Shown piece after piece: positions 27,398-30,252 of a stretch of 47,512 nucleotides of DNA. Position numbers and translations under genes: made by a program. The notes under the pieces are model-generated. The model was not told the origin of the DNA and made no database searches. It was given only the letters and a program-made list of their open reading frames with translations. This DNA is from Marine Group I thaumarchaeote. Lineage in GTDB: Archaea > Thermoproteota > Nitrososphaeria > Nitrososphaerales > Nitrosopumilaceae. The stretch lies in NCBI GenBank assembly GCA_013390375.1, contig JACATA010000006.1:1-47512 (forward strand). The letters are read 5' to 3'. Position 1 is the stretch's first letter, and every line of letters begins with the position of its first letter.

Positions 27398-27781
27398 CTA
27401 TAAAGTAACTAGCTTTACAGTATCCATCCTTTTATTTTTTTGAAAGTCCCTAGTGATACTACTGACAGAATCTGCATCACCTTTTAGCATAAACAGCTCC
27501 ATGCATTTTTCACCCTCTATCTTACTATGCAAATGGGTAGTAATCAGATCCTCAAAACTGTGCTTTATTCCATTCACCTGCTCATCATATTCATCGTTGT
27601 GAACTACAAGTAAGATTGCATTGATGTTTCCAGAAAGATTTTCGTTTTGTTTTTCTTCTGCAACAAAGCTTCTGATGCCAGCCCTGATGGCATCCGACCT
27701 TCCGGAGAATCCCATCGACTTTTGGAGGTTGTCAATCTCCTTGAGAATTTCCTCAGTGAGCGAAATTGAGACGATTGGCAT
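27398..27781 (-). CDS. NikR-like ribbon-helix-helix metal-responsive regulator
   Basis: 127 aa. The N-terminal 45 residues are a CopG-type DNA-binding domain (VSISLTEEILKEIDNLQKS, then GRSDAIRAGIRSF). The C-terminal ACT-like domain aligns with NikR. Of the four nickel ligands of E. coli NikR (His76, His87, His89, Cys95), three are present as His74, His85 and Cys93, while the His89 position is Lys87; an extra His (83) lies two residues earlier. Metal choice may thus differ from nickel. It diverges from a metal-ABC transporter gene pair and very probably controls it through the shared intergenic region. Confidence 0.85.
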   Translation of the reverse strand: MPIVSISLTEEILKEIDNLQKSMGFSGRSDAIRAGIRSFVAEEKQNENLSGNINAILLVVHNDEYDEQVNGIKHSFEDLITTHLHSKIEGEKCMELFMLKGDADSVSSITRDFQKNKRMDTVKLVTL

Positions 27782-27789
27782 GACTGGAT

Positions 27790-27849
27790 TGTTATTAAGA
27801 AATATAAAAATTTTAACTAAATGTTATTAACTTTTTATATGTTTATTAA
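27790..27849. promoter_or_regulatory. Divergent promoter with repeated TGTTATTAA elements
   Basis: The 90-bp region between the regulator and transporter genes carries TGTTATTAA at 27790-27798 and 27822-27830 and TGTTTATTAA at 27840-27849. TATA boxes face both ways: TTTTTATAT near 27802-27811 on the minus strand and CTTTTTATATG at 27831-27841 on the plus strand. The repeats sit next to these boxes, so they are the best candidates for the operator of the NikR-like protein. Confidence 0.5.
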
Positions 27850-27871
27850 TAATTCAGGCGTGGATTTTACC

Positions 27872-28585
27872 ATGATAGTAGACATTCAAAAGCTGTCTGT
27901 TGATTATTCTGGAATCAAGGCATTAGACGACATAAGCTTCGGAATTGCAGAAGGTGACTTTTTGGGAATTATCGGACCGAACGGCGCAGGAAAATCTACG
28001 CTGTTTCATTGCATGCTTGGGTTGCGCACACAGTATGATGGAACAATCAAGTTCTTTGGCCAGGATATACGAGACTCCAGAAAATACCTATCACAGGTAG
28101 GATTTGTGCCACAAAAACCAGTGGTGGACAGAAATTTTCCGGCAACAATTAGAGAGGTTTTATCCATGAGCCAAAACTCCAGTGATTCAAAAAAAGTAGA
28201 TGAAGCGCTGCAAAAGGTCTGGATGCACGAGCTGGCTGACAGAAGAATTGGAGACTTGTCAGTTGGACAACAACAACGTGTCTTTATTGCAAAGGCACTG
28301 GTCAACTCGCCAAAAATTCTAGTTTTGGACGAGCCAGTTACCGGAATTGATCAATACAATCAGGATCTATTCTTTCAGATTTTAGGCGAGCTAAACACCA
28401 AGGAAAAAATTTCAATAATATGGGCATCACACGACCTGGACGCAGTGGAAAGGCTTGCCAGCAAGGTAGCCTGCCTTAACAAGACACTTTTCTTCCATGG
28501 CATTTCCGAGGAATTCTTTTCAGATGATGAGATGCTCAAGAAATATTCAGAGACTTCTATGCAGATGCATATGCATCACCATTGA
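27872..28585 (+). CDS. Metal ABC transporter ATP-binding protein (ZnuC/MntB type)
   Basis: 237 aa with all ATPase motifs: Walker A GPNGAGKST (from about residue 35), Q loop in GFVPQKP, signature LSVGQQQR, Walker B KILVLDEP and switch His in ASHDLD. The sequence groups with the zinc/manganese importer ATPases. It ends in a His/Met tail (MQMHMHHH), which could bind metal. I start at ATG 27872; the longer frame reaches back over the promoter. The permease gene begins 6 bp after the stop. Confidence 0.92.
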   Translation: MIVDIQKLSVDYSGIKALDDISFGIAEGDFLGIIGPNGAGKSTLFHCMLGLRTQYDGTIKFFGQDIRDSRKYLSQVGFVPQKPVVDRNFPATIREVLSMSQNSSDSKKVDEALQKVWMHELADRRIGDLSVGQQQRVFIAKALVNSPKILVLDEPVTGIDQYNQDLFFQILGELNTKEKISIIWASHDLDAVERLASKVACLNKTLFFHGISEEFFSDDEMLKKYSETSMQMHMHHH

Positions 28586-28591
28586 TGTACA

Positions 28592-29425
28592 ATGACTTTT
28601 GAAGCCGTATCATACGAGTCCATTCCGCATGCGCTGATATCTGGAATTGCCATTTCCCTGCTTTGCAGTGTCGTAGGGCTGTTTCTGGTTTTGAGAAAGT
28701 TTTCCCTGTTTGGGGATGCCCTGGCACACTCTGCATTTGGGGGCGTGGCATTTGGCCTTTTCATTGGAATTTACCCATTATGGATTGCATGTGCAGTAGC
28801 CATACTTAGCGCACTGGGCCTCACCAAAATCCGCCAAAAATTTGATATTTCAGGCGATGCAATAGTTGCAATCTTACTGTCAACCGGACTGGGTGCCGGA
28901 GTAATATTGGTCAGTTTAACGGAGGATTTTGAATTTCATGACATTGAGGAATTCTTGTTTGGTTCAGCGATAGTTGACACTCAAAATGTTGTTGCAATAC
29001 TTGCAATGGCCGGCATAATCCTAACCATTCTTTTCTTTACATACAAGAAAATACTATACTCTACATTTTCCGAGGAGCAGGCCAAAGCCTCTGGAATTCC
29101 CGTGGAAAAGATGAGTTATCTTCTAATCGCCATGGCTGGCGTCACCGTTGTCATATCGATGCAGCTGGTTGGGGTGCTCCTAATTTCCGCATTATTTGTA
29201 CTCCCCAACGTTTCGGCCATGCTTTACGCACGCTCCTTCAAGCAGACAGTGATTCTCTCAATGTCGTTTGCCGTATTCGCTACTGTTTCAGGCATAATCA
29301 TGTCATATCAATTTGAAATTGCACAAGCTGGATGCATCGTACTGGTTGCCGCTGCAATCTTCATTGGCTCGCTTGTTGCAAAGGGTTCCGGGCTGGTGAA
29401 GACTGCTGGGATATTGGCAAAGTAG
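28592..29425 (+). CDS. Metal ABC transporter permease (ABC-3 family)
   Basis: 277 aa, about eight membrane helices. Conserved segments: LFLVLRKFSLFGDALAHSAF near residue 40, GDAIVAILLSTGLGAGVILV and VGVLLISALFVLPNVSAMLY, diagnostic of zinc/manganese/iron ABC-3 permeases. Cotranscribed with the ATPase gene. No metal-binding SBP gene (ZnuA type) is in the window; such a protein must come from elsewhere, or its role is taken by another exported protein. Five bases beyond its stop begins the first copy of a 47-bp repeat. Confidence 0.93.
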   Translation: MTFEAVSYESIPHALISGIAISLLCSVVGLFLVLRKFSLFGDALAHSAFGGVAFGLFIGIYPLWIACAVAILSALGLTKIRQKFDISGDAIVAILLSTGLGAGVILVSLTEDFEFHDIEEFLFGSAIVDTQNVVAILAMAGIILTILFFTYKKILYSTFSEEQAKASGIPVEKMSYLLIAMAGVTVVISMQLVGVLLISALFVLPNVSAMLYARSFKQTVILSMSFAVFATVSGIIMSYQFEIAQAGCIVLVAAAIFIGSLVAKGSGLVKTAGILAK

Positions 29426-29430
29426 TATAA

Positions 29431-29477
29431 TTTCTAGGCGTAAAATGTCAGTTTTACTGACAAAACGGAACTAATTT
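29431..29477. repeat. 47-bp direct repeat, copy 1
   Basis: Runs from TTTCTAGGCGTAAAATG to ACGGAACTAATTT and recurs at 30206-30252 with one mismatch (T29448 against A). It contains a hairpin (TGTCAG-TTTTA-CTGACA) and an overlapping alternative one (GTAAAA-TGTCAG-TTTTAC). This copy overlaps the last codons of the secreted-protein gene on the minus strand and follows the permease gene, so it could end both transcripts. Confidence 0.85.
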
Positions 29478-30154
29478 AGAGACTGGATGTACTCGTGAAG
29501 CTTTTGCTTCTTTTCCTCAAGTGTCAGAGGAAGATACTCTTTGAACATCTGCTTCATGTCTGCCCTCTTTTGGGCTTTCTCGTCATCGGACATTGTGTCC
29601 CACTGCAATTTTGCCTGCATGAAATGAACAATCAACGAGGCCCTGTCTTGTATTGATAGTGATTTGTACGCCTCGCCCATCTCCTTGAATTGGTGCTTCT
29701 TTTCTGCTATCTGCTCGTCAGACATTCCCTTGAAGTAGTTTTTCATTTTATCGCTGTGTTTTTTATCTGAATGCTTTTTGTGGCTGTAATCCTTTTTTAT
29801 CATATCAGAGACATAGAGTGCCTCACCGTTTCCTGCGTCAACTAGGACTTTGTAATATCCATGATCCTCGGTAATCAGTATGACTTTGTGAACCAGGAAT
29901 CCGTTGACATCTGCAAGCTTGGCATACATTGCCTTTCCATCTGAGACAGAATTCTCACCAACTGCCATTGCAACAGATAGAGCAATTCCATTTTTTTGCT
30001 CAAAGTCATCTCCTGATGAAACTGGAACGGTTCCTTGAATTTGTGGATAGTTGAATTTGTCCCATTCTGCAAAGGCTGGAACAGTTAGAATTGATATCGA
30101 AAACACGCCAATTACTAAAATTGCTGCAATTGTAATTTTGGCTGATTGCTTCAC
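29471..30154 (-). CDS. Secreted His/Lys-rich protein next to metal transporter
   Basis: 227 aa. A signal peptide (residues 1-29, cleaved after AFA) precedes a small domain with VHKVILITEDHGYYKVLVDA, which resembles PepSY-like folds, then a basic segment with His125, His128 and His133 (HKKHSDKKHSDK), then a long helical C-terminus (FKEYLPLTLEEKKQKLHEYI) with Met/His. The His cluster suggests metal binding outside the cell. Convergent with the metal permease gene and flanked by the two 47-bp repeats. GTG start. I recognise no named family; role as metal carrier or buffer is inference. Confidence 0.72.
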   Translation of the reverse strand: MKQSAKITIAAILVIGVFSISILTVPAFAEWDKFNYPQIQGTVPVSSGDDFEQKNGIALSVAMAVGENSVSDGKAMYAKLADVNGFLVHKVILITEDHGYYKVLVDAGNGEALYVSDMIKKDYSHKKHSDKKHSDKMKNYFKGMSDEQIAEKKHQFKEMGEAYKSLSIQDRASLIVHFMQAKLQWDTMSDDEKAQKRADMKQMFKEYLPLTLEEKKQKLHEYIQSLN

Positions 30155-30205: not shown

Positions 30206-30252
30206 TTTCTAGGCGTAAAATGACAGTTTTACTGACAAAACGGAACTAATTT
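30206..30252. repeat. 47-bp direct repeat, copy 2
   Basis: 46 of 47 bases match copy 1 at 29431. The A at 30223 disrupts one pair of the TGTCAG hairpin but keeps the GTAAAA/TTTTAC one. It lies 5 bp beyond the stop of the last tiny membrane gene (minus strand) and upstream of the promoter of the secreted-protein gene, whose TATA (ATTTATAG) is near 30176-30183. A partial third copy (TACTGTCAAATCG) is at about 30187-30199. Confidence 0.85.

Follow-up and report, generated by a model that had tools for sequence, protein, structure and literature searches.

Background

The closest described counterparts of the locus analysed here are the ZnuABC and AztABC zinc importers (cluster A-I, with a permease of the ABC-3 family) and the PsaBCA and MntBC-A manganese importers; canonical ABC importers of this subgroup are said to need a substrate-binding protein (SBP) (PMC11779740, PMC8487065). 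Our locus shares with the zinc importers a homologous ATPase and permease, but differs from them in the absence of a ZnuA/AztC-type protein from both the locus and the genome, in a rewritten outer loop of the permease, and in the presence of a NikR-like regulator in place of Zur. The permease superposes on PsaB and carries the Asp-His-Asp site at the same spacing as in the manganese importers, but a counterpart of PsaA/MntA is missing and the region of the gate and the outer helix is altered. Two further systems invite comparison. ECF transporters import without a soluble binding protein, as is proposed for our locus, whereas they possess S and T components and our locus is a plain ABC-3 pair; identity with an ECF transporter was considered and rejected, since the EcfT and S-component membrane proteins are absent and the ABC-3 permease is the only transporter membrane protein encoded. 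The BtuCD-type vitamin importers share the type II fold (TM score 0.67 between the permease model and 1l7v), but in our case a natural loss has removed the binding protein, and the substrate is expected to be a metal ion. In the part of the literature covered by our searches we found no published SBP-less metal importer of the ABC-3 type and no His-rich ZnuB loop.

Organization of the locus

The window, i.e. the whole analysed stretch of 47,512 nucleotides, comes from the genome of a Marine Group I thaumarchaeote (G000; 1.05 Mb in 37 contigs, 94.7% complete), whose named near relatives are the Marine Group I thaumarchaeotes AC-665-F20 (G056), AC-661-N08 (G057) and AC-647-G13 (G058), whose names suggest that they are single-cell genomes. 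All four genes are arranged as the preliminary description had it: the gene of a ribbon-helix-helix regulator (minus strand) diverges from a ZnuC ATPase and ZnuB permease pair (plus strand), and the gene of an exported protein (minus strand) is convergent with the permease. The canonical locus of the family reads nikR|znuA-znuC-znuB. The features are as follows:

27398..27781, minus strand: NikR-like ribbon-helix-helix metal regulator (Pfam RHH_1 and NikR_C; alignment with 1q5v; adjoins znuA or znuC family-wide)
27789..27855, no strand: promoter/operator-like region between nikR and znuC with GTTATTAA repeats (conserved in the comparison of ten genomes; putative operator role)
27872..28585, plus strand: ZnuC-type ABC ATPase, 237 aa, with a His/Met C-terminal tail, at the site of the lost znuA (Pfam ABC_tran; conserved start; dN/dS ~0.06)
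28592..29425, plus strand: ZnuB-type ABC-3 permease, 277 aa, with intact D42/H46/D89 (Pfam ABC-3; AF2 model compared with PsaB, 7kyp; dN/dS 0.12-0.18)
28913..28990, plus strand: rewritten extracellular loop of the permease, approximately residues 108-133 (SLTEDFEFHDIEEFLFGSAIVDTQNV), in place of SxSGGFxxDIFSFLFGSILL (sequence comparison)
29431..29477, plus strand: first of two copies of a 47-bp direct repeat, at the 3' end of the exported gene (sequence)
29471..30154, minus strand: exported PepSY-domain protein with a helical C-terminal part, the convergent neighbour (PepSY in 20 of 24 homologues; Foldseek; His unconserved)
30206..30252, plus strand: second copy of this direct repeat, upstream of the exported gene (sequence)

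The ATPase starts at the ATG at 27872 and not at 27821, because its homologues begin with MIVDI. It matches PF00005 with 117 bits, and the Walker A (GPNGAGKST), signature (LSVGQQQR) and Walker B (LVLDEP) motifs are seen in the sequence. The His/Met tail, to which the preliminary description drew attention, is indeed present (MQMHMHHH), but it occurs throughout the family, and we rejected it as a special feature of this locus. The permease matches PF00950 with an E-value of 5.3e-64 (216.7 bits against a cut-off of 20.1), and its AlphaFold model, built from an alignment of 25 rows and with a mean pLDDT of 78, resembles PsaB of 7kyp with a TM score of 0.85. Residues D42, H46 and D89, kept in every SBP-less ZnuB sequence, correspond to Asp47, His51 and Asp94, which are essential in MntC of B. 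anthracis (PMC8487065). The pair thus exhibits the ABC-3 permease, the ZnuC-type ATPase and the Asp-His-Asp permease site of cluster A-I, and the nearest family models include ZnuC, ZnuB, AztA and AztB, all scoring below their cut-offs; a further hallmark of cluster A-I, a cognate PF01297 binding protein, was found neither in G000 nor in five other members of its clade.

The regulator shows Pfam matches to RHH_1 (E-value 2.1e-6) and NikR_C (E-value 2.9e-13) and scores below the cut-offs of the NCBIfam NikR equivalogs. In the alignment with 1q5v, the nickel ligands H76, H87 and C95 of E. coli NikR have equivalents, while the position of H89 is occupied by Lys; the full four-ligand high-affinity nickel site (H76, H87, H89, C95) is thus absent, and the protein may sense nickel or another metal.

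Loss of the binding protein

The preliminary description reported no ZnuA-type protein in the window. The profile search with PF01297 extends this result to the whole 94.7%-complete genome, with no match at E<=10, although the domain is present in 213 of the 250 genomes of the family. Six genomes of the genus lack znuA at the locus (G000, G056, G057, G059, G060 and G061), and PF01297 was not found elsewhere in the five relatives either. All six are incomplete (63-95%), which could in principle mean that ZnuA resides in their unsequenced parts. This explanation is hardly credible: the gene is missing from its normal place in 6 of 6 genomes, the chance that incompleteness hides PF01297 in all of them is about 4e-5 (assuming independence), and in a family precedent of an unlinked ZnuA, genome G084, the permease has retained the canonical outer loop. 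The suggested metal-importer module lacking an SBP is thereby strengthened: the comparison of sequences confirms a genuine absence, which is clade-specific and has lasted.

Two other arrangements were observed in the family. The G084 locus contains an 86-aa ORF in place of znuA (L097:8507-8764), and the same genome encodes a 462-aa His-rich ZnuA elsewhere (G084:C1:464840-466024). Genus g22 (0.8-Mb genomes G247-G249; L101, L102, L103) has znuC-znuB without an adjoining nikR, no PF01297 match and the canonical loop, and represents a second, different ZnuA-less case.

The comparison of ten genomes revealed that the intergenic sequence between nikR and znuC is nearly identical to the region between nikR and znuA in the ZnuA-containing relatives. 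The distance from the nikR start to znuC amounts to 89-90 bp in all six SBP-less genomes, the same as that from nikR to znuA in G058 and G073. The identical spacing and the near-identical sequence show that znuA was removed cleanly and that znuC now lies behind the znuA promoter.

The SBP-less ZnuB sequences are monophyletic (99/96), and those of ZnuC group likewise (92/94). In the NikR tree, G060 clusters with the ZnuA-containing G063 (99/89) and G061 with G052/G064 (94/81), and the G060/G061 promoter matches that of G063 up to TTTATTAATAA. The discordance of the trees together with the promoter match suggests that the znuCB allele moved between nikR backgrounds, apparently through recombination at a point downstream of nikR; the support is moderate, NikR being a short protein. 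As all SBP-less loci go back to one event, the association between the loss of ZnuA and the altered loop constitutes a single evolutionary observation. A possible scar of allele recombination was seen in G078, where the frame of the permease gene (L088:2301-3152 and after) is broken by stops near its end and followed by KTAGIVAKRT, which resembles the 3' ends of other alleles.

We also considered that the locus is a decaying remnant, i.e. that ZnuA was lost first, znuBC is on its way out, and uptake is carried out by a divergent ZIP-family protein, whose gene is present in G000 as well as in ZnuA-containing relatives. The small size of the genomes would agree with this scenario, and the ZIP-family protein could carry the main uptake, which counts against an SBP-less importer. 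Nonetheless, the reading frames are intact wherever the genes are complete, and pairwise NG86 dN/dS values within the SBP-less clade are low across a large synonymous distance (~0.06-0.07 for ZnuC, 0.12-0.18 for ZnuB) and similar to those of ZnuA-containing pairs. The catalytic and metal-binding residues are retained, and the SBP-less module is found on two nikR backgrounds. Because of the low dN/dS and the intact residues of the metal pathway, the sequences indicate that the pair is not decaying, and we regard the remnant scenario as very improbable.

The outer face of the permease

In the ZnuB model one helix ends at residue 109, a short helix spans residues 115-123 and the next helix starts at 130; the positive-inside rule and the position of the coupling helix place the segment between 109 and 130 on the predicted extracellular side. 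In the other permeases examined this segment is nearly invariant and reads SxSGGFxxDIFSFLFGSILL with small variations (short form GGFxxDIFSFLFGSIL). The corresponding short form in G000 is TEDFEFHDIEEFLFGS; the loop reads SLTEDFEFHDIEEFLFGSAIV in G000 and G057 and SMSDDLEIHDIEEFLFGSAII in G056, while G061 possesses an insert of roughly 57 residues with EESHDEESHDEESHDEESHDEESHDEHD before HAHDMEEFLFGSILQ. An insert of the same type (EESHDEESHDE) occurs in the partial gene of G060, and the His-rich insert is found only in these two genomes. The number of acidic residues in the segment rises from 2 in the canonical form to 7 in G000 (E111, D112, E114, D117, E119 and E120 among them, with a single His, H116), and G061 has 30 acidic residues and 10 His.

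All 16 genomes of the genus that have both a permease and ZnuA carry the canonical motif, which is missing from each of the 5 clade members whose permease is sequenced; the incomplete G066, with no ZnuA match, has the canonical loop. A survey of 400 genomes of the order, which did not include G057 and G060, detected the signature D(I/M)EEFLFG of the clade in three, all of them clade members (G000, G056 and G061). No universal rule that a missing ZnuA means an altered loop can be formulated, as G244 and G247-G249 have no PF01297 match yet keep the canonical motif.

Changes in the SBP-less permeases are concentrated at the outer surface. Among columns that show 95% conservation or more across the comparison set, 6 of 22 extracellular ones are changed in all SBP-less sequences and unchanged in the sisters G058/G073, compared to 1 of 60 elsewhere (p=0.0012); the six are F10, G111, G112, F119, S120 and L127. 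For the outer face of ZnuB, relative-rate counts against the same ZnuA-containing sisters gave 14-19 lineage-specific changes versus 3-6; the excess was smaller in the remainder of the protein and absent from ZnuC. The N-terminus and the I112 region of MntC have been proposed, independently, to mediate SBP binding (PMC11779740), and they are equivalent to F10 and to the beginning of the rewritten loop, respectively.

The main rival to metal capture by the loop is a change of the partner protein: ZnuA would have given way to an unrelated binding protein outside the cell, either the PepSY-domain neighbour or the product of a gene located elsewhere, and the outer face of the permease would have been refitted to it. 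A switch of this kind would likewise speed up change mainly at the outer face. On the other hand, the His/Asp/Glu-rich insert of G060 and G061 would not be expected from a mere change of docking, the locus contains no other conserved exported gene, and the highly specific SBP-permease pairing in zinc systems (PMC7731109) makes rescue by an unrelated protein less likely; on balance we consider a new partner unlikely, if worth keeping in mind. Alternatively, the pair could have been repurposed without ZnuA as a metal exporter or a sensor, given that ABC exporters work without a binding protein and that this permease evolved quickly. We find this improbable, as neither the type II importer fold nor the metal triad has changed, the NikR-side promoter region is retained, and the changes are located at the outer entrance and not in the ATPase.

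The exported protein and its surroundings

According to the preliminary description, an exported His-rich protein could capture the metal in place of ZnuA. The gene starts with GTG, and its product, which contains SHKKHSDKKHSDK, is exported and does have the His run, but the His residues are not conserved: a comparison of close homologues shows their number dropping from 8 to 2, and the stretch HKKHSDKKHSDK is a charged linker of variable sequence, with SNKKASNEKYNEK in its place in G077. The Pfam search revealed no PF01297 match in the protein. PepSY (PF03413) is matched by 20 of 24 homologues (best E-value 3.7e-8), the copy in the window itself being unmatched, and Foldseek identified YpmB, CD1622 and YpeB (prob 0.96-1.00, E-values about 0.02-0.09). 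The profile of the homologues and the predicted fold together identify it as a PepSY-domain protein with a helical C-terminal half.

The gene occurs in 84 of the 250 family genomes, many of them with ZnuA. Its proximity to the permease in G000, G056 and G057 would agree with a role as the new partner; however, the expected co-occurrence beside the transporter is largely absent among relatives, with nearby copies in G056 and G057 only, separated from the permease by 1.3-2.1 kb of other genes, and with unlinked copies in the SBP-less G060 and G061 as well as in G063, G052 and G084. On the basis of linkage, distribution and the unconserved His residues, we rejected this protein as a substitute for ZnuA, and it is unlikely to be a metal-capturing partner or any other part of the importer. 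The change in the outer loop of the permease, which the preliminary description does not mention, is, from the sequence comparisons, the better candidate for a compensating feature.

The exported gene is exactly flanked by a 47-bp direct repeat, whose copies are 98% identical and contain a core hairpin GTCAGT-TTT-ACTGAC. The 41-bp core is found exactly in G000, G056, G057 and G058 and is absent from the other 27 of the 31 genomes of the genus; G058 has a single copy together with a fragment of the 3' end of the exported gene. With two copies in G000 and a restriction to four genomes, the repeat was rejected as a genome-wide element. Between the znuB stop and the repeat, relatives contain different genes (L085:5573-7600, L086:1960-3210, L092:9870-11420), while in G000 there is nothing; by sequence reading, these are an HNH-like and a nuclease-like gene in G057, two other ORFs in G056, and a nuclease-like and a ParB-like gene in G058. 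The gap looks like an insertion hotspot. The sequence CGTGCCTAGA at the end of znuB is met a second time where the HNH ORF of G057 ends.

The gene that converges on znuB in G084 and G249 (L097:4182-6974, L102:6128-8818) appears to encode a large CopC/CopD-like exported membrane protein, a hint that the locus may be tied to copper in other members of the family. The portion of a copper-limitation study of N. viennensis available to us mentions CopC/D and ZIP permeases and not NikR; a copper link through that study was not adopted, and no metal was assigned on its basis.

Proposed function of the locus

We lean towards the view that the locus encodes a type II (ABC-3, ZnuBC/MntBC-like) importer of transition metals that lost ZnuA once and still works without it. 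That it would be a binding-protein-independent ABC importer, whose permease itself captures the ion by means of an acidic loop, His-rich in some genomes, that evolved after the loss, strikes us as an evenly balanced proposition. The sequences show that znuA is gone from between the nikR-side promoter and znuC, according to this model through one loss in the ancestor of the SBP-less allele, and that the outer face of the permease has become an acidic mouth with one His (E111, D112, E114, H116, D117, E119, E120), expanded in G060 and G061 to the long His/Asp/Glu-rich loop. The permease dimer may attract and capture a divalent metal (Zn, Mn, Cu or other) directly through the loop and hand it over to the D42/H46/D89 site, while ATP would drive the cycle in the absence of a docked binding protein, and the NikR-like protein would still repress the operon when the metal is plentiful. 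The ATPase activity of MntBC is high and not stimulated by its SBP (PMC8487065), hence the pump could keep running after losing its SBP, although the loss would be expected to cost capture at low metal concentrations. A ring of acidic and His residues at the mouth of the dimer is a plausible replacement for the binding protein; the short loop of G000, the ZnuA-less genomes with the canonical loop and the dependence on one evolutionary event all argue against capture by the loop.

Implications

If true, such an importer would contradict the rule by which no type II ABC importer can do without a substrate-binding protein. A lineage in which the SBP is gone, the pump is kept under selection and the entrance is remodelled would show the minimal change that permits the loss of the SBP, and the related permeases with and without ZnuA provide ready pairs for direct comparison. 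The finding would also bear on the metal supply in abundant marine ammonia oxidisers.
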